A stretch of 64,000 nucleotides of DNA. It comes from Coniochaeta sp. PMI_546 (Eukaryota > Ascomycota > Sordariomycetes > Coniochaetales > Coniochaetaceae). The notes under the pieces are model-generated. The model was not told the DNA's origin. It did not search any database and saw only the letters and a program-made list of their open reading frames with translations. A program made the position numbers and the translations under genes. Where the stretch lies: positions 930,001 through 994,000 of the forward strand of contig MU271146.1 of the NCBI GenBank assembly GCA_021432605.1, in the 5' to 3' direction. This document shows, one piece after another, positions 11,193-62,368 of this stretch; the first letter of the stretch is position 1; each line of letters begins with the position of its first letter.

Positions 11193-11973
11193 TTCAGCCC
11201 TAAAAGTAGTCTCCGCAGGGGTCACATGAGGACTAGGGTTTTATCGCTGTAGCACTGTGATCGCTCAAAACAATGGCCTGGATCATGACAACTTTCATAA
11301 ACTGCCACCTTCACGTCACAGTATTTGTTGGAGTAGTCCTACCTTGAAAAGCCGTATATAAGCCTGAAATGATTGCACATGAATAGACGTGTATCAGTGT
11401 ACCAGTGTACCCGTAGGCTTCATAAGCTCGAAGCTCGAGGAGTCATTCAAAGTGGCAAGTGGCGCAATGTGACCCCGGATTTTAGCGGGTTTAGCGGTAA
11501 GGCTGCTCTAAATTGTTCCAGGTTCCCCCTGCTGAGAAGCGGGACGTCCCCTCCCATTGGGTCATATCGACAACATGCCGCTGAAACACCGCCCCGGAAT
11601 TGTTGATGATGCCGCTGGGCACTACTGACATTCTAAGTTTCCCTTGTCAACGTCACAGCTGCAGCCTCGAGCCCTTCTCTCGCCTTCCACCTTCAGACAT
11701 CTTTCCCGCCAAAACTCTCTCCGAAACCGTTTCCCCCAGGGTTTCCTCGCCTCCCAGACGACCGACAATATATCTCTGTCTTCTATTCGACCTTATTACT
11801 CCTCTCAACCCCTTTCGTTTGTCGTAATCCGGAACGCTCCTCGAAGCTCGATCAGTTCAACGTCCCACAAAATTGCCGAGTCTGACGGTTCACATTCTCC
11901 TGTTGCACGGAACTTCTCAGCACTGCAAGATATCGTGCTTGCCGGTCGACGACAGGACTGCATTGGACCGACC
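11193..11973. other. Intergenic region and 5' leader of the sacsin-like gene
   Basis: The 3' end of the MMtag gene is followed by a GC-average spacer, then a pyrimidine-rich leader from about 11640. The reading frame of the downstream gene stays open upstream to 11644, but without an ATG before 11974, so I treat this as 5' untranslated. Confidence 0.6.
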
Positions 11974-14900
11974 ATGGACTACTCTCGTCTACGGGCGGCC
12001 GCTCTGAGAGATGGAGAGGATGAGGAAGCTGTCACAGTCGATACACGGGCCCTAATAGACAAAGTCCTTGCTCGCTATTCCGGAGAATGGACCACTTTGC
12101 GAGAGCTGATACAGAATGCCGCGGATGCTCAAGCAACGACCGTCCAGATCAAATTCGAGACGCTGCCGTCGACCCAAGTGCCACTGCCACAGACCACAAG
12201 TCGCTCGGAACTCCTGAAACACACAATCACACACCACACCCTCCGGAGGCTGGTTGTGCAGAACAATGGCCAACCCTTTACAAAGACAGACTGGGGAAGG
12301 TTAAAAAGGATCGCCGAGGGCAACCCGGACGAGACCAAGATTGGTGCTTTTGGTGTTGGGTTCTACAGCGTGTTTGCAGACTGCGAGGAGCCCTTTGTCA
12401 GCTCAGGCAACGAGGCTATGGCATTCTACTGGAAGGGTAATGCGTTATTTACAAGGAAGCTGCAGCTACCCGAAGGTCAGGGGAATGGCGATACGACCTT
12501 TGTGCTCGATTATCGGAACACAACTACGCCCATCCCAAATCTTCTCTCGGTCGGCCAGTTCCTCGCCACCAGCCTTACATTTGTAGCACTGCAGAGCATC
12601 GAGTTCTGGATAGACGACTACAAGATCTTGGCTTTGCGCAAGAAATCTTCTCCCAACGTCGAAATCGCCATACCTCGAGATATTGAGACAAAGACAAAGG
12701 AAGGTCTGATGAAGCTCTCGACCGCAGAGCGGACGAGTACGCAGATTGACGCTACTTTCATGAGCGCTATCGGATGGAAGCCACAAGCCACCAGTTCTGC
12801 GAATAAGAGCCAGGACGGCTACTACTCCGCTTCCACATCAGCAGAGATGCCATCGCTACGAAACTTCTTCTCGAGGCTGACGTCCCATAACTCACAGGCT
12901 GGGCTCCGTACTACAAGAGCAAAGGAGGAGATCGCTGCTCAAGAAGCGATAGCTGAGGATCTCACGGCCACCTCAACGTCGAGCATCTTCCTGAGGACCA
13001 CCACCGGAGTTGTACGTACTAACGTTGCGGCTGCTTTCGCGGCTGAGCTGGAGAGAGCGACCAAGAAACCCCCACCCAAAACCACCAAACTTGCCATCTT
13101 GACGTCCTCTTATGATGATACCAAGGCCTCTACATCTTCGTCCACATCAAGCCACATCGCCAAAGTTGCAGATGTTTTCTCGACCGTCTTGCCGAGCAAG
13201 AAGCCCGGAGGAAGAATATTCATCGGTTTTCCGACAACCCAGACAACTGGAGCCGGCATGCATATCTCCGCCCCGTCTGTGATACCCACAGTAGAGCGAG
13301 AAGCAATCGACTTGAACGCAAGATGGGTTAAGACGTGGAACATTGAAATGCTTCGCGTTGCGGGAATCATGACTCGGCTTGCATTCTCCAACGAGATGTT
13401 GGATCTGGGAGACAGGGTCCAGAGGGAGCTGGAGCCGGTCAAGACCGACTCTGCTGCTTACCAGGCCGTGATCCGAAAGTTCATCCCAGAAGCTCTTCAT
13501 ATTCTAAACACTTACTCCTTTGGTGACTCAACACCAAGCGGTCATGTGGGACAGATTCTCGAAGAGGCCTTCTGGACGACTTACAAGAAGGCTTTCATCG
13601 AAATATTCTCTTCTCGCGGAGTACTGTCGACCTTGAAAGTTCGCGTTGGGTCTGAAGAGCTCTCCAGGTTCATCGATGGTACCCCTGTTATATTACCGGA
13701 GATGAAGGATGCGCCATTTGTTCGAAAGGTAACCGACTTTGGTCTCGTCAGGGAGATCACAGTGGACGACGTCTGCGAAGAGTTGTCTGCGAAGGCCCTC
13801 ACCAAGGACCAGCTGCAACACTTTATTGCCTGGGCTGGAAAGAGTGCCGCATCTGGAGAGCTTGACCCTCCTAGCAAGGAACGTGTCCTGGATGTTGCCG
13901 TTGCGACTGTCACGAATGGCGATCAAGGAGAACTGATCGTGCTCGGAAGCATCAGGAACTACCTCGCTACAAACAAGATTCCGGCCAACATGCCTATCCC
14001 ACCTACTACAATTCCGGTCACATTCACTGCCTCGGTGCCTGTCCATCAATTACAGGCTTTGGGATGGGAACCGTTAGAGATTGTGCCCTGGTTGCGTTTT
14101 CTGATTGAAACAGCATCTAGCCAGGACGAAGAGCACAACATCACAAAATCTTCCAAATTTGCCGCGCAGGTTCTCATGATACTTTCCAAGAATTGGGAGC
14201 AGCTGAGCCAAAGCTCAAAAAGTTCTGTGGTCTCGGCACTGCAGAATGTCACGGTGATCCCTACGAGACTGGGCATGAGAAAGCCAGCCGAGTCCTACTT
14301 CCCTACCGTGAAGCTCTTTGACGACTTGCCAATCATCCAAGGATGCCAAGGGATCAAGGACAAGCTACTCTCGGCTCTCGGTGTCAGGAAGACGATAGAC
14401 CTCGAGACTATCTTTACGAGATTGCTCAACCCTTCCCCGGCGAGTGGAGAAAGCAGCGAGAAGAAATGGAGCCATGTTGAACTTATCAAGTACCTGGCTT
14501 CTGTCAAGAACGATATTCCCGCGGAAGACATGAAGAAACTAAAGCAATCTCGGTTGTGTCCAGCAGAGCTCCCTCGGAAGGGTTCAGAGCCGGCCAAGCC
14601 AACAACCGAGCTGTACAGGGTTTCCGAGCTCTTTGAGCCCAAAGACTCTCTGCGTACCTTGAACATCCCCATACTCCAATGGCCAATGGCGTTCAGGACC
14701 ACGTCTCCAGAAGCCCGATTCTTGTCTCAGCTGGGGTTACGCCCCTATCCATCTGTGCCAGAGCTTGTGGATATGATGGCTTCGCCCGATGCTAGCTTGA
14801 GGAGCAACGCAATGACCTACTTCCTAGGCAACTATGGGTATAATGGATATGCTTCGTTCGATTTGGCGAGCACTAATAAGGCCATCTTGCCAGTCCAGGG

Positions 14901-17416
14901 TAACGACAAACAGTTGGTGCCTCCCTCGGCGTGCTACACCAATGAAGCGGCTGCAGTACTTGGGTACAACATCCTGAAAAGGGAACTTCATCAGGATGCA
15001 CTCAAGTTTGGAGTCGCACGGGATCCGCCCATCACCGGATGCGTTGACAGACTGCTTTCAAAGCCCCCCAAGGACTTTAACGCCGCAGTAACACTGTTCA
15101 ACTACTTTAGCACCCGCCTTGGGGATCTCGGAAGCAATCACCTGGCCAAGCTCCAGAATGCACCCATTGTGCCCGTCATGAGGAAGGACCCGCGGGCTAC
15201 CGAGAAGTCGGCCAGTACGCTTGTGTACCTCCGCCCTCAGCAGTGCTACCTAGGCAGCGCGTCCACTTACGGGGACATATTCGATTTTGTAGATTTCGGT
15301 GGCACTGCGAATGCCTTTCTCTTCAAGTGCGGAGCAAAGACAGAGCCTACTAAGATAGAGTTGGCGAACATGGCTTGCGCAGAGCCTGCGCGGCTTCTCA
15401 GTGTCCTGCAAAGTCCTGAGAAGTACCTTAACCTTCTAAGGAACCTCGCTGAGGATCTGCCGACACTGAAGAAGGATAAGGAGCTATTCAAGCGGATGAA
15501 GACTTCAGCTTTCCTGCTTGGATCGAGAGAGATAACCTCTAACAACGGCCGCTCATCAGATTCATATGAGGAGGAGGAGGCCCCTATCAAGCAGTGGCAA
15601 CTTGCTGCGCCAGGTCAAATTGTGGTTCTTGACGACTACATCAGCTATCGGCTGTTCAAGGACTCCCTCATATGTGCACCGGAGGAGGACGTCCTCGAGG
15701 CATTTTACATGGCGCTGGGCTCTCAGACCCTCGGCAGCCTTGTACAAGAAGACCTCAAAATCGGCCCGCACATGGAGAAGCAGGACGGTGCTGTGTGGCT
15801 ACGCAAGCACGTGCTCGAGAGGTCCAAGCTCTTCATGTACGAGTACACGAAGCATAAGCCTGACTCGGTCAGGCATGACGTGAAATGGCTCGAAAAGCAC
15901 TTGACAGTGGAGGTCGTCCGCTCCGTCGCTCTGCGCAGGTCGCTGCGCGGGCAAAACCAATCCCACACAGAGAAACGATCGGCGGCGAGCAGGCGCACAA
16001 ACAGTGGCTACGTCTTGTATGTTAGCTCGGAGGGACGGCCGGACATGTACCAGGTTGGACAGGCCGTCTGCCAGTTGCTTCTGACACGGCCAAGTCAGCA
16101 AGCATACTTCTTCTTCGAGCCGTTCTTGAAGCTAGACCTTTTGGACCTACGTGCCCGCGGTTACAACGTCGATCGTATATTGCGTGCGAAGGCAGCAGAA
16201 GCCAGGATCGCGGAGGAGGAGAGACGGAAGGCCCTGGAGGCTGAACAGCAGAAAATCCAACAGCGCGAGCGGGAGTGGGCGCAGCAGCACCAGCCGGTTG
16301 AGGCTGCCGCTAGGGAGGCCGCAAAGACACCCAAGACCAATCGCATGCCCGGCGGCTTTGCGGATTCTCCCGAGGACGACCACTCACCCGTACCACAGCA
16401 ACAGCGTAAAAACCGTGGCCTCTTCTCCAATATCTCCCGCCGTCTCGGCTTCGACGTCGACGACGAGCAGCAGCGGGCCAACAACGATGATGCCCAGCGC
16501 CAGCTCGAGAACTTCCTCCCCGAGCCACAGGGCATCCCGCAAGGGCGAACACCCACACCAACCCCTCACGTAGAAGGTAACCGCCCCAATGATGACGGCC
16601 GCGTTACGAACCCGGCCGTGATCCAGCGCAACCTCCTCAACGCCATCAACTCCACCCGCCCACACGACTCGTCCGAGCTCTTTTCTCCTCCCAACCAAGC
16701 CACGGTCAAAGAGCAGGCAACTTACTGCGACGACACGCCAAGTCACAACATAAACTTCGTCGCCGAAGCCCCTCAGGGGATGCGCGTGTTCGTGTCCAAG
16801 GACCTGTCCGTCTCGCCGCAGGAGTTCCTGATGAACCAGCTCTCCAACATCGGGCAATTCGAAGGTCTACTGAAGGATATAGCTTCGATCTACGGCCTCG
16901 CGCCGAATGCGATCCATATCTTCTATGACGAGCACGGGGGCACCATCGCGTTCAACAAGGGAGGAAGCATCTTCTGCAACCTGCGCTTTTTCGTGCAGCT
17001 GCATGCCCCGAAGTTCGGTCGGTCGCCGGAGGCGAGGGTCGAGGCTACGACTTGGTGGTGGGTTGTCGCTGCGCACGAGCTGGCGCATAATCTGGTTGCG
17101 CCGCATAACTCGGATCATAGCTATTACACGTGAGTTTTCTTCTCTACTTCTTTATCCTCCCTCATCATCTGCGGGAGAAACACATTACTGACGTTTTTGG
17201 TGCAGGGAATCTTTCATCCAGCAGTACTTCCCCAAGATGATGGCAAGGGCTGTGCAGTTGGGTGCTGCGCCTGCCACGCCGGTGTCTCGAGAGCTGCCAT
17301 CGACGAGCGATGCGAGCGATGGCCAGTTCCCCGGTAGACCGATTCCGCCGCCGCCTGCCTATGAGACTCTGTCGAGGAACAGCGGGGCTTATGGGTATCG
17401 GAGCTTGCTTGATTGA
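11974..17416 (+). CDS. Giant sacsin-like GHKL ATPase with C-terminal HExxH motif
   Basis: Exons 11974-17129 and 17206-17416 give 1788 residues. The first in-frame ATG (11974, ACCATGG) starts the conserved N-terminus MDYSRLRAAALRDGEDEE. A GHKL (HSP90/sacsin-type) ATP-binding domain follows directly: LRELIQNAADAQ at about 42-53 is the N box, and GAFGVGFYSVF the ATP-lid glycine motif. The central 1300 residues carry the helical region I associate with DUF3684-type fungal proteins. A charged coiled coil (about 1400-1480, EERRKALEAEQQK) and a Gln/Asp-rich linker come next. The end holds IAFNKGGSIFCNLRFF and WWWVVAAHELAHNLVAPHN, with H1701, E1702, H1705 and H1711. Sacsin-type ATPases are chaperone-like. 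Fungal members are widespread but, to my knowledge, uncharacterised. The last intron falls right after this motif. Confidence 0.85.
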
Positions 17417-21617: not shown

Positions 21618-24457
21618 TCACACAGGACCCTGCACCCCTTCCTCACACGTCAAGCTATCCGAATAACAAACAACCCCCAACCGATCGCTCCCCTCCCCAA
21701 TCCAAATCTTATACCGACCCTCCGGGTCAGGAACAACCCAATTCTGGCCCACCACATCCCAGACACTAACATCCTTCCTCGTCAACTTCAACAGCACCCT
21801 CTCACTCCCACCAGGCGCCAGCGTACCCGTCTTCTCAAAGTCCCGCAGCTGAATCACGGGCGTGTCCCACGCCAACCCGTCCGGGAACTGGACGTACGCC
21901 TGCACCACGGCCTTCCCGGCGTGCTCCGTCCCGGCGTTCGCCACCGCGAGGCTGATCTCGAACGCTGCGTCCCAGAGCGCCGGGTTGCCGCCCGAGGCGC
22001 CGCCGGCCGGCGGTCCGGGGGTCTGGGCCGTGGAGTAGCCTGCTGGATACGGGTAGGTCGATTTGGTCGCCGCTGCGGCGGCGGCGGCGTCGGCGTCGGA
22101 CTTGGAGAGCCAGGAGTAGAGGTAGCGCCAGATGGGGGCGAAGCCGGTGGGGAAGTAGGCTTCTGATGCGGGCGGGATGGCGGTTGAGTAGGAGGGGGTA
22201 GGGCCTTTGGCTGGTCGCGCGGGAGGGAGGGAGGTGAGTGGTGTGACGGAGCGGATTGACGTGTTGGTCAGCGAGAAGGTGGTGTAGCTGAGACCGTGGC
22301 CGAAAGCGTAGCGCGGAGTGATGTTGTGCTTGTTTAGGTAGCGGTAGTCGATGTACAGCCCTTCCGAGTACGTGTCTTGGACCTGGCCGAAGGCGAAGCC
22401 GCGCAGGTTGGCGATGCTGTCGGGCAGGTCGGTGGCTGACTTGGTTATGGAGTAGGGGAGGTGGCCGCTGGGCGAGACGTCGCCGAAGAGGACGTTGCTC
22501 AGGGACTCGCCTGCTTCTTGACCGGGCAGGTGGGCGAAGAGCACGGCCTTGACGGAGGGAAGGGAGATCCATGATTCGAGGTTGAGAGGGCCGACGGTGT
22601 GCACGACGACTACCACGTTGCTGTATTTGGCGGCGGCTTGCTGGACTAGCTTGTCGCCGTCGTGCCAGGCTGCAAGTTTCGAAGCGTCCCGGTCGCCGTG
22701 GTTACCCTCTACTGTGAAGCTGTTCTCGCCCGAGTCGGAGGAGATGAAGACGACGGCGACATCGTCAGCTGCCGGAGTGGGTACGGAGGGAAAGGAGTCG
22801 GTTGCGTAGTACGTGACGTTGCTGGTCCGTCGCTTGATGGCGTCAATAGGCCCGTCCATGTACGGGTAGTCTGCCACTCCAGAACCCCATCCCATCCCAA
22901 GTGTACCTTTGTTGCAGGCACGGTTACCACAGGCATTTGGGCCGTCAGGGTTAACCTGCGCATCGGTGCCGAAGACGCTTAATTTACGAGATGTCGACAA
23001 CGGCAGCAGGCCGTCGTCGTTCTTCAGGAGGGTGATGGCATCCTGGGCAACCTGTCGAGCCACCTTGTAGTGGTCTGCCTGCACATTGACGTAGTAGTTG
23101 ACCACTCCTATCGGGGAGATCACTGCTGCCGGGTAGAGGAGACCTGTCCGATCGTGCGTATTGGAAGAGAAGTTGGGCGGAGGATAGTTCTTGTCTTGCC
23201 CCATTTGGTACCAAGCGGCCACGATGCGAGTTGCCATGTCGTTCAACCGGTCAACAGGGACAGATCCATTCAAGACTGAACGTGTGAGCTCGTACATCCA
23301 GTAGCTGGTACCAAAGATGATTGGGATCTGGGTGTCCCCCGGCATGTCCATATCAAGTCCAGCGAGTGCGGAGGCGACTCCCGACATGTGAGAAAGCCAA
23401 TCTGACATGACGAAGCCCTGGAAGCCCAGTTCATCCTTGAGGAGGCCGTTTAACAGATAACTGTTTTGCGAGCAGGCAGAGCCATTCACTGCGTTGTATG
23501 CCGACATTACAGACCCAACGCCTGCTCTGATTCCCTCCGCAAACGGCCAAAGGTAAAGTTCATGGAGTGTACGATCATCTTGCGAGTTAACAGTCAGCTT
23601 CTCGATCAGGGGTAAGGCTCCTGCCGTATCTGGATATGGGCGCTTACCGATGTTGGAGCTGTAGCCGTCTTGGACGGGGTTGTACATGCGGTACATCTCC
23701 TGTTCATTTGCTATAAGATGCTTTATTGTCGCAATGACCCCTTGCTCCTGTACTCCTTTGACGGTAAGAGCACCTGCAACGGCTTGAAGGACGGGGTCAG
23801 CTCCGAATCCTTCCCAGTTCCTCCCACCAAGCGGTTTACGGCCCAGCGGTCCAACGGTAGGGCCGAGGTAGATGTTGACGCCCTTGCCGCGGAACTCTTG
23901 ACCGATTGCTACCGCGCGCTGGTACATTAGAGACTTATCCCAAGTTGCGCCTGTCGTAATGCCGGCGGGAAATGCGGTGACGTTGTCTGTTGATGCCACC
24001 CCCAGAGCCGAGTCTTGGAGACATAACTGAGGGAAGCCGAGACGAGAGGCACTTCCAGTGTTGCCAACACACGGGCTGGGCCATAGTCAATATCTACCAT
24101 GCGTCTCGAGACCATAACTTGTGGACCAATGCTTACCCTGTGGCCTGTTAGCTGAAGGCTCGCCGTGAGAGTGATATATTCATCAGGCTTACCCATGTAT
24201 ATGCCGGTTCCGGCAGTGATGTTGGTTTTCTCAGCGAGTGTCATCTGCTCTACCAATGCCTTCGCTTTGCTGTAGCTGATACTCCAGTCACTTGTCCAAC
24301 CGCCATGAGGCGTAGGATAGTATCCTTTCGCCGCGTAGCCGGCCGGCACCGCATCCCGTTCACGAATGACGGAGCCTCCACGGCAGACACCAGCGAAGGC
24401 ACTTATTATAAGCAACAGAGACTGGACACTCGTACCGGCCATGATGATTTGGTACAT
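21618..24457 (-). CDS. Secreted GH3 beta-glucosidase
   Basis: Exons 24457-24193, one nucleotide at 24137, 24075-23648 and 23578-21618 give 884 residues. It would cleave terminal beta-D-glucose from cello-oligosaccharides outside the cell. A signal peptide is seen ([23 protein letters not shown]); an alternative ATG at 24442 is also in frame. Domain order: GH3 N-terminal ([26 protein letters not shown], and the nucleophile Asp near 291 in GFVMSDW), GH3 C-terminal ([34 protein letters not shown]), and a fibronectin-III-like end ([11 protein letters not shown]). The intron at 23647-23579 is in frame and could be missed; removing it restores [17 protein letters not shown]. The region 24192-24076 holds two introns separated by a single base (see findings). 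GH3 C-terminal inserts Ala-rich and Pro/Gly-rich segments. Confidence 0.93.
24076..24192 (-). other. Two adjoining introns separated by one nucleotide (stwintron-like)
   Basis: Intron A is 24192-24138 (55 bases) and intron B 24136-24076 (61 bases), with only G24137 between them. Both begin GTAAGC. A has the branch site GCTAAC and ends CACAG; B has the branch site TTGAC and ends CCCAG. The phase supports this: exon 1 ends ATG G, the next exon starts C CCG TGT GTT, and one further base is needed to read M-G-P-C-V-G-N, the sequence expected in GH3 enzymes. No single donor/acceptor pair gives that frame. Confidence 0.7.
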
Positions 24458-36498: not shown

Positions 36499-39112
36499 AT
36501 GCGGCTCTACTTCCTTGCGCTGGTCGCTCTGGCGAGCGCATCAACGCTGACTCCGCCTGTTCTTCCTCTGATCGTCCGCAATCCGTACCTGAGCACGTGG
36601 CTTGGCAATGCACGAAATGCGCCCTGGGAGGAGTGGCCGATGTTCTGGACTGGTGCCCACGTAAGTCCAGCCTGGATAGGGACATCCTGCAAAGCCATGC
36701 CTCGGTAGAGAGTCTAATAAGGAAGTAGGTCGGGTTCTCCGTCATGGCAGCAGTCCGTGAGACGGGTGCTGTGTATCCTCTGCTTGGACGTCCGCAAGAC
36801 TCCATCCCGCACTCGTCCTCCAACTTCAACGTGTCGTACCCAACATACCTCGGTGCCACCTTCGATGCCTCGACCACGAACCTGAGCTACGCTATCAACA
36901 GCCCCTCAGCCGGAGGTGACCAGCTGACGCTTACGCTGTCGTTCTTGTCGCCAATTACACCCTCATCGACCCTGAGACAGTCCATACCTGCAGCGTATAT
37001 GACTGTTCTCGTCGAAGGGACCACTGACATTGACCTCTATGTCGACGTCAACGGCGAGTGGGTCAGTGGGAACCGAGGGAATACAATTAGGTGGGACTTG
37101 ACCGAGCCGGACCGCAAGAAAGGTGCCATCTTTGATGAAGCAACACAGCTCAAGACTTGGAAGGTCAGACGGAGCAATGAGGAGCTTCTTACTGAGTTCA
37201 ATGACCGAAGTGAATGGGGGACCTTGCACTTCTCCGGACCAGCCGATGTCCACCACCAGGCCGGAACATCAGCCATTCTTCGCCAGCATTTTTCAGAGAA
37301 AGGAACGTTGAAGAACGAGATCGACACCAGTTTCCGACCTATCATGGACGAAGAGCCTGTATTTGCCTTCTCCAAGTCGTTCAAGCTTGGCCCAAGGGGC
37401 AGCAGCAAGGCTACGTCGAAGAAGGACAGCGTGGTGTTTACCTTCGCCCTGGTCCAGGACCCCGTCGTTCAATTCGCCTCTGCCAGGGGGCTAACCTTCA
37501 TGAAGCCTTTGTGGGCGTCCTACTTTGCGTCTGCCGACGAGCTTATAAGTTATCACTACGACGACTTCAACACGGCCTCTACCTTGGCGTGGAATTATTC
37601 CGCTACTCTGGCCAAAGACGCGTTTGAGTCTGGATCACACGACTACCGGGACATCGCAGCACTCTCGGCTCGGCAGGTGCTAGGAGCAACGCAGTTTTCC
37701 GGAACTCCAGATAACCCCATCCTCTTTCTGAAGGAAATCTCTTCTAACGGCAATTTCCAAACGGTGGATGTCATTTTCCCGGCCTTCCCTTTCTTCCTGT
37801 ACACCAACCCACAATGGCTGGCCTACTTGCTGGAGCCGCTCCTCGAGCACCAACTCAGCGGTCAATATCCGAACGATTACAGTATGCACGATCTCGGCGC
37901 CCATTTCCCCAATGCCACTGGCCACAGTGACGGTAGAGACGAGTACATGCCAGTTGAAGAGTGCGGCAACATGTTAATCATGGGCCTTGCCTTGGTAAAC
38001 GCCTTCAAGTACGACACTGAGCCTGCCTTCACAGCCGCGGTAGCGGACGCTACAGCAACCAAGGAGATCCAATTCCCCAAGATCTGGTCCAATATCGTCG
38101 ACAAGTACGGCGTAGACCTACCACAAGACCTCCAGGCCACCGGGGCCAAAAAGGCCGAGAAATGGGCAGGCCGCTCTTACAAGCTCTGGAAGCAGTGGAC
38201 GGGGTACCTCGTCCGCGAGTCTCTGATCCCGCACAACCAACTGTGTACCGACGACTTCGCTGGCTGGCTGGCCAACCAGACCAACCTCGCCCTCAAGGGC
38301 ATCATCGGTATCAAGGCCATGAGTGAGATAGCGGACCTGGTTGGAGAGAAAGAGGACGCGAAGTACTACCGCCAGACAGCGGATGAGTACATCGAGAAGT
38401 GGCAGGACTACGGCATCTCGCGCGACAAAACGCATGCAAAGCTGGCGTACACCTGGTACGGGTCGTGGACGACCATCTATAACCTGTACGCTGACGCGCT
38501 GCTGTGCTTTCATATTCCCGGGGAGAGTAAGAGCGAGAAGACGGCTGGGTGGTTTGATGGGTTGTTCGGGCAGAAGCCGCTAGACGGGACAAAGACGGAG
38601 ACATTCATACCGGACGAGGTGTACAAGATGCAGAGCGACTGGTACCATGCTGTGCTGCAGCACTACGGGCTTCCGTTGGACTCCAGGCATCTGTATACCA
38701 AGAGCGACTGGGAGTTCTTTGCTGCTGCTGTGACGAGCAAGAAGACGAGGGGGGAGATGTTGGAGCGGATTGCTGTGTGGGTGAATGAAACGAATACCGG
38801 TAAGTCCTAAAGTCATGAGCTGTTGTTCTCGAGGATGTGGGTGCTAACTGTGCTGTGGTAGACCGGCCGTTGACGGATCTTTATGATACGGAAGGCGAGG
38901 GAGGGTTTCCGGGCCCGAACTTCTTCGCTAGACCTGTTGTCGGAGGGCATTTTGCGTTTCTGGCGCTGGAGAGGGCGTGTGGGGGGAAGGCGGCGGAGGC
39001 GTTGCGGTTCTTGGATGAGACGCCGCGGGTTGAGGTCAATGTTGAAAAGGCATTGATGGCTGATGTGTTGTTGTCCGAGGATGGATATGATACAATGGAA
39101 GAGGATCTTTAG
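36499..39112 (+). CDS. Secreted GtaA-type glutaminase
   Basis: Exons 36499-36660, 36729-38799 and 38862-39112 give 827 residues. GtaA-type enzymes hydrolyse glutamine to glutamate and ammonia extracellularly (Aspergillus GtaA is the named example). A signal peptide (MRLYFLALVALASASTL) is followed by the conserved opening PLIVRNPYLSTWL. The fungal glutaminase body (DUF5127, DUF4965 and DUF1793 regions) shows WTGAHVGFSV, then DVIFPAFPFFLYTNP, YSMHDLGAHFPNATGH, EECGNMLIM, and LIPHNQLCTDDFAG. The end shows SDWEFFAAA, then GPNFFARPVVGGHF. Both introns fall in phase within conserved segments. Length is typical. Expression is probably nitrogen- or salt-responsive in relatives, but nothing in the promoter shows it. 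Confidence 0.93.
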
Positions 39113-46561: not shown

Positions 46562-47961
46562 ATGTCTTCCTTCAGAACCATTGCCCCGTTTCTACGGACG
46601 GCACGCTTCGCCCTGACGCGGCAGAGCAACCCTCTTATCGCGCTCCAGCGCCAGCAGACCACATCTCCAGTCCTCAACCTCGCAAGGACGTATGCCGTCT
46701 TTGAGCGGACAAAGCCTCACGTCAACATCGGAACCATCGGTCACGTCGATCACGGCAAGGTGCGTACCTATTCTGTCTGCCGGCTCAAACACTTGGCCCA
46801 TACTAACTCGTCTCCTTTTTCCATCAGACCACCCTTTCAGCAGCTATCACCAAGAGGCAAGCCGACAAGGGCCTGGCAAGCTTCCTCGACTATGGCTCTA
46901 TCGACAAGGCCCCCGAGGAGCGGAAACGTGGTATCACCATCGCAACAGCACACATCGAGTACTCGACAGACAACCGCCACTACTCCCACGTCGACTGTCC
47001 CGGTCACGCCGATTACATCAAGAACATGATCACCGGAGCCGCCAACATGGACGGCGCCATCATTGTCGTCGCTGCCTCGGACGGTCAGATGCCCCAGACC
47101 CGTGAGCACTTGCTCCTCGCCCGCCAAATCGGTATCGAGCGCATTGTCGTCTTCGTCAACAAGGTCGACGCCCTCGAGGACCCCGAGATGTTGGAGCTTG
47201 TTGAGATGGAGATGCGTGAGCTGCTCAGCTCTTACGGCTTTGCTGGCGACGAGACGCCCGTCATCATGGGCTCTGCCCTGTGCGCCCTCGAAGGCAAGCG
47301 CCCCGAGATTGGCGAGCAGAAGATTGACGAGCTTCTCAAGGCGGTCGACGAGTGGATCCCTACCCCCAAGCGCGACCTCGACAAACCCTTCCTCATGTCC
47401 ATCGAGGATGTCTTCTCCATCTCCGGTCGCGGAACCGTCGCCTCGGGCCGTGTCGAGCGTGGTATCCTGAAGAAGGACTCCGAAGTCGAGCTCCTGGGCA
47501 AGGGCACCGAGATCATCAAGACCAAGGTGACCGACATCGAGACCTTCAACAAGTCCTGCGACGAGTCGCGCGCCGGTGACAACTCCGGTCTCCTCCTCCG
47601 CGGTGTCCGCCGCGAGGATGTCAAGCGCGGCATGGTGCTCGTCAAGCCCGGCTCCGTCCAGGCCCACAGCCAGTTCATGGTCTCGCTTTACGTCCTTACG
47701 AAGGAGGAAGGTGGCCGCCACACCGGCTTCCACGAGAACTACCGCCCCCAGATGTACATCCGCACTGCTGACGAGTCGTGCGCGCTCTTCTTCCCCGATG
47801 AGGTCGAGGACAAGCACTCCAAGATGGTCATGCCCGGCGACAACGTCGAGATGGTCGCCCACCTGCACAACCCGCACGCCGTCGAGGTCGGACAGCGGAT
47901 CAACGTCCGCGAGGGCGGTCGTACCGTCGCCACCGGTATCATTACTCGCATTATCAAGTAA
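46562..47961 (+). CDS. TUF1: Mitochondrial translation elongation factor Tu
   Basis: Exons 46562-46759 and 46828-47961 give 443 residues. It delivers aminoacyl-tRNA to the mitochondrial ribosome using GTP. The N-terminus ([20 protein letters not shown]) is a typical mitochondrial presequence, and the mature protein begins near [23 protein letters not shown] motifs: G1 GHVDHGKTT at 60-68, the switch I sequence ERKRGITI, G3 DCPGHADY, and G4 seen as NKVD. Domains 2 and 3 follow ([21 protein letters not shown]; then GHVEMV-type end [26 protein letters not shown]). The intron cuts exactly after the Lys codon of the G1 loop. C-ending codon bias is strong. A 418-codon frame on the opposite strand is a shadow of that bias. 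Confidence 0.98.
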
Positions 47962-48758
47962 ACGAGTCAATGACACTGGGGGTAGTTCGACATCTGAACA
48001 TGGTTGGTTGAGCCTTGGAGAAACATGCACTTTGGGGGGGCCTAAGTCTACGGGGTACGGAGTTTTGAGTTCACCAAAAAAAGCCCTGTACATTTGATGG
48101 TGTTGTACGATGGATATGCTGCATACTGGACTCTCCCACTGGCTTCGGGCACCTGTACACTTTTAGACTACGGCTCCTTTATCTCCGCTCTTCTTCTAGC
48201 TTTGTCTTTGATATGTAGTATAGACAGACTGGAAGTGTAATAGAGGCTCACGAAGCTGATTTCTCAAGGCAGACTATATTGTGTCAGCTTTGTGAAGAGA
48301 CGCTGCGTCATTTCATATTCAGTTGTCGATAGATTTGCATTGGGTACATGATCAAATTCCAACCCTAAGTCGGTTTGAAAGGACACATGGGCCGAGCCCA
48401 GGCATGATAGTATTTAGTTGACGTTGGGCGTGCACTCGGATTCAACATTTCAGGTTCGCCAAATGTGACAGGAAGGTTGTATCGACCGCGTAGGCGCAAA
48501 GAGGCATATGAGTGACCAGAATAGCAACGGTCTATTCGCTCGAGACTGATCTGGTTTATCCACCACACAGCACTCTCTTCCCCCCCCTTTTCACTGTTTT
48601 CGCAGCAAGTCCAGGTCCAAAACCGAAGTCAACCGTGTAAACTCCATTATGCCGTACGATAGTCCCAGCAATGCCTCGACAGAAACCGGGTGTGAAATCC
48701 TCAAGCCTTCCACCGTCACTTCATGCCAACCGTTCCTCATCCCCGTCGACAAATGCAT
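47962..48758. other. Convergent 3' region, EF-Tu / S29
   Basis: Shared 3' sequence of two convergent translation genes. No gene or repeat is seen. Confidence 0.65.
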
Positions 48759-58792: not shown

Positions 58793-58864
58793 GGTCTTGT
58801 GGCTCAATGGCAGAGCGTCTGACTACGAATCAGGAGGTTGCAGGTTCGACCCCTGCCAAGATCA
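58793..58864 (+). tRNA. tRNA-Arg (anticodon ACG)
   Basis: The cloverleaf folds by eye. The acceptor stem GGTCTTG pairs with CAAGATC (one G-T), followed by discriminator A58864. A D arm follows at TGGCTCAATGGCAGAGC. The anticodon loop CTACGAA sits on a 5-bp stem, so the anticodon is ACG (read as ICG, arginine CGN codons). The T arm is GCAGG-TTCGACC-CCTGC. There is no intron. Internal A and B box sequences (TGGCTCAATGG, GGTTCGACCCC) fit RNA polymerase III use. Confidence 0.97.
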
Positions 58865-60070: not shown

Positions 60071-62029
60071 CTACTTCAGCCTCTGGAGCGCATCCTCAGC
60101 CTCCTCAACCATAGCCCTAACCTTTCTGACTTCCTCTAATACATCCTTCCCCTCCTGCGCTTCCCTCCTCTTCGCCCGCTCGAACACCTCTCCCACACTC
60201 GCCTCCGTGGCCCTGACAGCCTTGCGTCCCTCCTCTCTCACCTCGCCCTCCCAGTAAGCCCTGGCCGCCTCCCACTTCTTCTGCAGCCTCCTCATGCTCC
60301 ACACGATCCCGAGTGCCGCCACGGCACCGGCTTCGTACGCGCCCGCGCCCCAGATCTGCGAGACGTAAGTCAGTCCCGCCAGCGAGGACATGGCAGCCGA
60401 CGTGCCGAGACTCTGCCCGACCAGCTTCTGCGCCAGCGCCTGGAGGGCAGGTATCGTCCTCTCCAGCAGATACGCCCTCGTGTACGGGATATGCGTAGGC
60501 CACTTGCCCTCCAGCTCCGGCGTCGGCCTGTCTAAATTCTCGTCGCTGTTGCCTTCGGTGGCAGAAACGACCAGCGGACCGGGATAGGTCGGGTCGGTGT
60601 CGTGCTCTTCCACCAGGCCGGCCTCCTTGATCCGGCCGGCGAGGTAGATGATACCGCGCTCTGCCTCGGGGAGGAAGCGCTGCGAGAGCATGTCGGAGGA
60701 TAGCATGCCTACGTCGTCCACGCGCCAGAAGAGCTTCCACCACCCCAGCTTGCGCCAGCGGCGGCCGGTGAAGGCTAGGTCGAGCTGGGACTGGAGCTCG
60801 GAGTGGGCGGACTCGGACCAATCTGATAGTGCTCGGTCGAGGGTTGCGACTGCGGTGGGGGAGAGCTTGGATGACAGTGCGGCGGAGAGAAGACGCGCTT
60901 CTTCTGCTTGGATGGCGGCGGACGTGTTGCGTAGTATGGACGTTATGAGAGCGCGGACGGGTGGTTTGGTTGTACCCGGTGAGGAGGAGAGGACGCCGGT
61001 CTTCAGCCAGCATGTAATGGATGGCAGGTTGGACTCGAACCAGAGGTTCTCGTAGGCGCCTGCGTTGGAGACGGAGGCACGGAAGAGGGAGAGGGCCTTG
61101 CTGGCTGTCGGGAGGGAGATGACGGTGAATGGGTAAGGGGTGGAATCCTCGGCCGGGTCATGGTTTGGAAAGTTGACGACGGCCGAAATCATGCCGTCCT
61201 CTTGGAGGAGAGGGGAGGATACAAGGGAGGCGGCACCTAGGATGCCGTCGCCTACCACCAAGGCGCGGTGAACGGGGGTAGAGATCGGGGTGTAGCGGCC
61301 TGTGTTGGAGGGGATATCTATTGTTGGGACTAGGACCGCTTCGTCTGTAGTCTCGAGAATAGCACCGTCGCCGTTATCAAAGGGGTTGGTTTCCATGAGT
61401 AGGAGCTCCAGGTTATTCCCGTCCAGAGCTGGGGATGATACGTTGATCTCGGGTAGTAGCTCATCTCTCCTCTTTGCGAAGGACAGGTGTGGATGCTGTT
61501 GCTCTTCCTGTTCGCTGCCAACGTGAAGAATGAGCGGCTGCGCCGCGTCGGCGGACGTAAGCTGTTGCTCCCATTTCTGCTCTGATTGTAGGGGGTCGGC
61601 TAGCAGCAGACGGAGGAGCTCCTTCGCTGTCGCATGCGAGGAGTTGGTGCCGGTGGTCATGCCCAGGATGGCGACGCGGATGGACTCTTCACCTGGCGGT
61701 TGGGAGAGGTTTCGCAGGGCGAGCTGTATGCGTGACAGATTGACATAGTTTGGAGCGTGTCGTTGGAGATTCTGAAGGGCGGTTTGGAGTTCAGTCCGGG
61801 CTGATTCTGAAGGGTGCTCATGGATTGCAGGAGAGTCAATGGTAGACTGCGCCCGGCGTGTCGTCGTCGGCCATGGCGAGGAGGACAGCGGTTTCCGTCG
61901 CGATTTGTTGGGTCTCGTGAGGGAGCAGAAGAGACATATTTCCTGCGACCTATAGAGAGATCTAGACACCAATGGACCAGAGCTGCGACTTGCGCTGGCA
62001 GCTGATCGCAGGCTCAGTCGAGGTGCCAT
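60071..62029 (-). CDS. Mitochondrial protein resembling the fungal Mmc1 family
   Basis: A single exon of 652 residues from the first ATG (62029). The N-terminus (MAPRLSLRSAASASRSSGPLVSRSLYRS) is a strong mitochondrial presequence. Near residue 120 a segment RVAILGMTTGTNSSHATAKELLRLLL looks like a P-loop in which the GK(S/T) is lost. A Ser/Thr-rich middle follows, then a conserved-looking core (RWRKLGWWKLFWRVDDVGML). Two hydrophobic segments near the end (MSSLAGLTYVSQIWG, AGAVAALGIVWSM) precede a basic/acidic coiled-coil tail (EVFERAKRREAQEGKDVLEEVRKV). From memory this fits the fungal-specific Mmc1 proteins of the mitochondrial inner membrane, which have a dynamin-like ancestry; that assignment is not certain. 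Confidence 0.6.
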   Translation of the reverse strand: MAPRLSLRSAASASRSSGPLVSRSLYRSQEICLFCSLTRPNKSRRKPLSSSPWPTTTRRAQSTIDSPAIHEHPSESARTELQTALQNLQRHAPNYVNLSRIQLALRNLSQPPGEESIRVAILGMTTGTNSSHATAKELLRLLLADPLQSEQKWEQQLTSADAAQPLILHVGSEQEEQQHPHLSFAKRRDELLPEINVSSPALDGNNLELLLMETNPFDNGDGAILETTDEAVLVPTIDIPSNTGRYTPISTPVHRALVVGDGILGAASLVSSPLLQEDGMISAVVNFPNHDPAEDSTPYPFTVISLPTASKALSLFRASVSNAGAYENLWFESNLPSITCWLKTGVLSSSPGTTKPPVRALITSILRNTSAAIQAEEARLLSAALSSKLSPTAVATLDRALSDWSESAHSELQSQLDLAFTGRRWRKLGWWKLFWRVDDVGMLSSDMLSQRFLPEAERGIIYLAGRIKEAGLVEEHDTDPTYPGPLVVSATEGNSDENLDRPTPELEGKWPTHIPYTRAYLLERTIPALQALAQKLVGQSLGTSAAMSSLAGLTYVSQIWGAGAYEAGAVAALGIVWSMRRLQKKWEAARAYWEGEVREEGRKAVRATEASVGEVFERAKRREAQEGKDVLEEVRKVRAMVEEAEDALQRLK

Positions 62030-62368
62030 GGCGCTCAATGTCACGACATGTCGTTCATCCGAGCACAAGAACTCGAATCAACGACGATCGTACCTTAGCT
62101 TGAAGCGTTGCTTGACGGAAGCTTGGCCGGACCCACAGCGGCTTCCCGAATCCCTGGACCCCACCACCGTCATCCGGACCCTTCCGCTTCTGCATCGCCA
62201 TTGTTCAAACCACCGTCCGTGAAGCCACCGTTACCACATCATCCTCACTTAGATACCTACCTTACATATTCGTCCCCAAATATCTGAGTCTTCATCTTCC
62301 ATACAGCTACCTGCCTTGGCAAATTATACAAGATACTCTCACACAAATAGCCTCAGTATCGACGGAAC
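62030..62368. promoter_or_regulatory. Divergent promoter, Mmc1-like gene / E2 gene
   Basis: 339 bases between two start codons. No TATA box or named element is seen. Confidence 0.6.

Follow-up and report, generated by a model that had tools for sequence, protein, structure and literature searches.

Single-nucleotide exons in fungi and plants

Exons of a single nucleotide have been described in only a handful of genes, and gene-finding programs readily overlook them. In the portions of the open literature surveyed, the nuclear gene families found to contain them were APC11 and VPS55 in plants and CYP621A in Fusarium. The closest precedent for the locus described here, which lies in a gene for a beta-glucosidase of family GH3, is Fusarium CYP621A. 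In the available excerpts of the report by Nelson and Syed (2026), the authors call their case the first in a fungal gene and draw upon a set of 20 orthologues within Fusarium, a relative without introns and RNA evidence from 18 reads (PMC12940212). In their model, the loss of one exon base was compensated when a cryptic AGGGT within the intron came to be used for splicing (PMC12940212).

As far as those excerpts describe it, CYP621A resembles the present locus in several respects (PMC12940212). Both are ascomycete nuclear genes in which an exon consisting of one G is set in AG/G/GT (slashes mark splice boundaries), is entered in phase 1 and is left in phase 2. In each, the G occupies the second position of a Gly codon that lies in a conserved motif. 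The interruption is approximately double the usual length (139 nt in CYP621A), and both cases were found through a mismatch of reading frame. In contrast, CYP621A encodes a P450 (PMC12940212), whereas the present gene belongs to the GH3 family and is known from the sequence of one locus. The GH3 locus appears to fit the one-base-loss model proposed for CYP621A.

APC11 and VPS55 likewise possess a single-nucleotide nuclear exon between two complete introns, but the excerpts of these reports concern plants, in which splicing was shown experimentally, and the exon of APC11 is an A (A333) (PMC4674806, PMC8831610). For Arabidopsis APC11, Guo and Liu (2015) suggested, in the part of their report available, that the introns are removed sequentially by intron definition (PMC4674806). 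Among fungi, a single exon base also separates two introns in a mitochondrial case from Ophiostoma, described in the excerpt as resembling one from Ceratocystis; these are group II introns of mitochondria, where no spliceosome takes part (PMC12308204). A placozoan mitochondrial cox1 case is also among the literature matches listed for such exons.

Spliceosomal twin introns (stwintrons) are, by the definition in the excerpts available, pairs in which an internal intron lies within an external one and interrupts one of its consensus elements, namely the donor, the branch site or the acceptor (PMC12403724, PMC9024468). Those of types [D1,2], [A2,3] and [D5,6] resemble the present case in comprising adjacent ascomycete U2-type introns removed in two consecutive reactions. 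They differ in that the internal intron splits an element and must be removed first, whereas here the mRNA would gain a base (PMC9024468, PMC12403724, PMC6616335). No stwintron or micro-exon of a beta-glucosidase or other GH3 gene was found among the open-literature matches listed, as judged by titles and term counts.

Structure and reading frame of the GH3 gene

The window, that is, the whole stretch of 64,000 nt that was analysed, carries on its minus strand a gene for a GH3 beta-glucosidase with a coding sequence from 24457 to 21618, the stop codon ending at 21618, and a predicted product of 884 aa (Table 1). Pfam scores of this protein were 125.2 for the GH3 N-terminal domain, 170.2 for the GH3 C-terminal domain and 68.1 for the Fn3-like domain, all of which exceed the cut-off. 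A total of 77 distinct PDB sequences matched the protein at E ≤0.001, the best being 4iib (E = 2.3e-217). The start of exon 1 is signal-peptide-like when judged by eye. Exon 1 also encodes the beginning of the GH3 region; homology to the PDB GH3 chains begins at residue 44-46 in the best 8 matches. A search of viral contigs using the first 375 aa of the protein gave no relative.

Table 1. Predicted exons and introns of the GH3 gene, with other features located in the window
Feature	Position	Strand	Length	Remarks
Exon 1	24193..24457	-	265 nt	Ends in phase 1; protein ...TAGTGIYM + G; last bases ATGG (24193)
Intron 1	24138..24192	-	55 nt	GTAAGC...CTAAC...CCACAG
Exon 2	24137	-	1 nt	Single nucleotide G; middle base of Gly codon G/G/C; assigned from frame and ungapped GH3 alignment
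Intron 2	24076..24136	-	61 nt	GTAAGC...TTGAC...GCCCAG
Exon 3	23648..24075	-	428 nt	From C/CCG TGT GTT GGC (P-C-V-G-N-T-G)
Intron 3	23579..23647	-	69 nt	GTAAGC...CGCAAG; stop-free, length a multiple of three
Last exon	21618..23578	-		Through stop; GH3 C-terminal and Fn3-like domains
DUF3684/sacsin-domain ORF	11644-17130	+		Family match
Glutaminase A ORF	36744-38807	+		Family match
Elongation factor Tu ORF	47026-47958	+		Family match
Mmc1 ORF	60074-62068	-		Family match
tRNA-Arg	58793-58864			One copy

An earlier note on this DNA had described two complete GT-AG introns separated by the single base G24137, and its coordinates proved exact on the minus strand. Each intron possesses a branch-like site of its own, as that note had also held; in these sites, CTAAC and TTGAC, the A precedes the end of the intron by 10 and 11 nt, respectively. 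The phases agree as well: the 265 nt of exon 1 leave it in phase 1, and the exon downstream of intron 2, which reads CCCGTGTGTTGG from 24075, needs one extra base. That base is supplied by G24137, which together with the last base of exon 1 and the C downstream makes up one Gly codon, after which the frame is open to the stop. The predicted mature join is ...ATATACATGG/G/CCCGTGTG....

If G24137 is left out, a stop is reached after 137 aa. Retention of intron 1 leads to a stop after 153 aa, of intron 2 after 89 aa and of both after 176 aa. The premature stops arising from skipping of the base, from retention of either intron or from retention of both lie 279 to 485 nt upstream of the last exon junction.

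A 94-aa fragment spanning the join matched 15 distinct PDB sequences (E ≤1e-10), and all five of the PDB alignments displayed for this fragment cross the join without a gap. The Gly itself is not conserved among the displayed PDB chains, its place being taken by E in 4iib and by D in 5ju6; homology thus fixes the number of bases at the join, not the identity of the base.

Splice sites were scored using a matrix built on the window's 11 other introns, those outside this gene, which were predicted by the gene finder and not derived from transcripts. Both GTAAGC donors scored 5.62, placing them in the top 1.15% of all GT in the window. The acceptors were ordinary, with scores of 1.55 and 2.02 that are reached by 41% and 30% of all AG, respectively, and the branch site of intron 2, TTGAC, is off-consensus. 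Summed scores of 12.8 for intron 1 and 11.9 for intron 2 fall under those of all 11 other predicted introns (13.0-17.5), as does the 12.0 of intron 3. The lengths of 55 and 61 nt lie within the range of 50-76 nt covered by the 11 other predicted introns, and 117 nt lies outside it.

The ab initio gene finder was built for this analysis and self-trained on 13 introns that included introns 1 and 2. With the matrix that included this gene, it selected introns 1 and 2 together with the one-base exon and read through intron 3, yielding a product of 907 aa; the 13 gene models to which it gave a score of more than 30 contained no other one-base exon. With the matrix from which this gene was left out (11 introns), exon 1 was dropped and the start placed at the ATG at 23927 under all seven of the micro-exon penalty settings applied. 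Exon 1 has a weak coding signal, which is nevertheless strongest in the correct frame. Since the gene finder misses exon 1 when this gene is left out, support for the one-base exon comes from protein homology and phase and not from ab initio prediction.

Intron 3 is read straight through by ORF calling, and a transcript retaining it would encode 23 additional aa in the same frame. In four PDB alignments, SSNVDD, SSNIDD and SANADD align to the SSNIDD of the spliced product without the extra residues of intron 3.

In exon 3 (24075-23648, minus strand), the residue after LGV is Ala, where five displayed PDB alignments have Arg (LGVR/LGIR). The Arg at this position binds the glucose unit in GH3 enzymes, and with Ala in its place the activity of the enzyme may be altered.

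Alternative splice models

On the evidence of the sequence, G24137 is very probably a constitutive single-nucleotide exon located between two independent spliceosomal introns that are removed one after the other. Models of the region were enumerated from splice sites within about 24300-24010, allowing GT-AG and GC-AG introns and taking intron 3 as removed. The minimum intron was 30 nt for single-intron models, 40 nt for two-intron models and for the internal intron of nested models, and 35 nt for the external intron. A model was passed if one frame contained both TAGTGIYM and the CVGNTG...LGV block.

Among 273 models with one intron, 5730 with two and 7954 with nested introns, only the pair 24192-24138 and 24136-24076 yields MGPCVGN, which upholds the earlier claim that G24137 is needed for this motif and for the GH3 frame. 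Passing models numbered two of the single-intron set, both with GC donors, and 12 of the two-intron set, three of which are GT-AG twice. Of the nested models, 13 passed; all of them rely on at least one GC donor, and none gives MGPCVGN. The other passing double GT-AG models contain micro-exons of 25 nt and 13 nt, which add 8 and 4 residues, and were rejected; they use poor sites (a GTCCAC donor; a GGTAAG acceptor with a GTTATG donor). The second passing single-intron model, of 77 nt with the donor TCA/GCTAAC, was likewise rejected, as more than 10 residues would be added.

The best placed of the alternatives, although an improbable one, is a single intron of 117 nt (24192-24076) with one base missing at the exon join, either through assembly error or as a real frameshift, the AG/G/GT within it being coincidental. 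A single added base would give a protein of the same length, with M-A-P or similar replacing M-G-P. The downstream exon opens in a CCC run, and the locus is known from an assembled sequence. Against this, both sides of the join match GH3 closely, so that the missing base would have to be confined to the few nucleotides around it. Outside the join, the 884-aa frame has no break, and the long uninterrupted ORFs nearby (1829, 884 and 688 aa) argue against a general indel problem. Such an intron would also be longer than all 11 of the other predicted introns.

The coincidence that a 117-nt intron entails was assessed using 20,000 dinucleotide shuffles of its interior, the ends being kept. An equally good pair of introns arose in none of the shuffles and a loosely acceptable pair in 55, while an AGNGT with both halves of at least 45 nt was present in 1864. 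The two strands of the window hold 436 AGNGT sites, and at this site alone do both flanking introns (45-90 nt) reach the scores found here; relaxing the threshold by 1, 2 and 3 units allowed 1, 2 and 7 sites to qualify. The window contains 11 instances of the motif YAGNGTRNGY and a single YAGGGTRAGY, the one at this junction.

A single GC-AG intron of 113 nt (24188-24076), giving M-G-N-P-C-V-G-N with one extra residue, is very unlikely. The whole frame and both conserved blocks would be kept, and the product scores 1.5 bits higher with PDB 6sz6, but the extra Asn cuts the bit score with 14 of the 15 PDB sequences. GC donors usually need a strong context. The donor required, TAA/GCCTGA, has no such context and scores -4.15 versus 5.62 for the overlapping GTAAGC, and the length is again beyond the local range.

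The stwintron-like reading of the earlier note is scarcely tenable. In a stwintron, the inner intron would interrupt a splice site of the outer one, either its donor or its acceptor, and so force the order of removal. Adjacent ascomycete-type introns necessarily removed in two steps would be common to both arrangements, as would a splicing intermediate that lacks just one of the introns, so that such an intermediate would not tell them apart. Both introns here, however, are whole, with donor, acceptor and branch site all uninterrupted; [D1,2] requires AG to be followed directly by TRNGY and [A2,3] an A directly before GT where the junction reads CACAG/G/GTAAGC; and none of the nested models that keep the protein is GT-AG throughout.

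The same note had taken the common donor hexamer as a sign of duplication, a suggestion that the comparison of the two introns did not sustain. Their global alignment score of 3.5 is that of shuffled sequences (mean 3.4 in 2000 shuffles, p = 0.49), and GTAAGC is the donor of intron 3 too and occurs 25 times in the window. Tandem intron duplication was accordingly rejected, as introns 1 and 2 have no likeness beyond this hexamer.

Predicted splicing, possible recurrence and neighbouring genes

Splice sites of ascomycetes are described, in the excerpt available, as pairing across introns (PMC12403724). For the constitutive one-base exon favoured here, the 117-nt interruption would consist of two independent introns of ordinary size, each recognised by intron definition. 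Pairing of U1 snRNA at a donor covers positions -3 to +6. At the second donor this stretch includes the AG of intron 1, and both introns could therefore hardly be engaged simultaneously; introns 1 and 2 would be excised sequentially and not together.

Intron 1 would probably be removed first, because it is transcribed earlier and has the better branch site, leaving ATGG/G/GTAAGC with the second donor intact. Since each intron is complete, either order of removal should yield the correct mRNA, in which the join codon G-G-C would encode the Gly of MGPCVGN. A direct join of the first donor to the second acceptor, or failure to remove intron 1 or intron 2, would be expected to result in a frameshift or an early stop and hence in mRNA decay, given how far upstream of the last junction the stops lie (279 to 485 nt). 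The analysis shows the sequence, the frame, the homology and the splice-site scores, whereas splicing itself, the order of removal and the fate of mis-spliced RNA are inferred.

The GH3 exon would add an independent new example to a known but very rare class, and a second, unrelated fungal gene with an anatomy like that of CYP621A would suggest recurrence. The consensus of both donors and of the acceptor prefers a G on the exon side, and a one-base exon in phase 1 with consensus sites consequently spells GG/N, which always encodes Gly. The Gly common to CYP621A and the GH3 exon thus needs no common descent.

A wider proposal, which must be regarded as speculative and rather unlikely, is that the one-base exon represents a recurrent, rule-bound solution in fungi, arising independently as a rescue of one-base loss, with splicing one intron at a time serving as a control point. 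The last of these roles is suggested because each failed route examined ends in an early stop and probably in mRNA decay. Further candidates could be sought by a simple rule, namely out-of-phase exons flanking AG/G/GTRAGY where the interruption is roughly double a normal intron in length. The case also bears on annotation: a pipeline may truncate this gene and lose exon 1 together with the probable secretion signal, as the gene finder did when this gene was left out.

Elsewhere in the window, family matches were obtained for four ORFs and one copy of a tRNA gene was located (Table 1). The families matched by these ORFs suggest a filamentous ascomycete. A 418-aa ORF model (46837-48093, minus strand) lies antisense to the elongation factor Tu gene model (46562-47961, plus strand) and is probably a by-product of codon bias.
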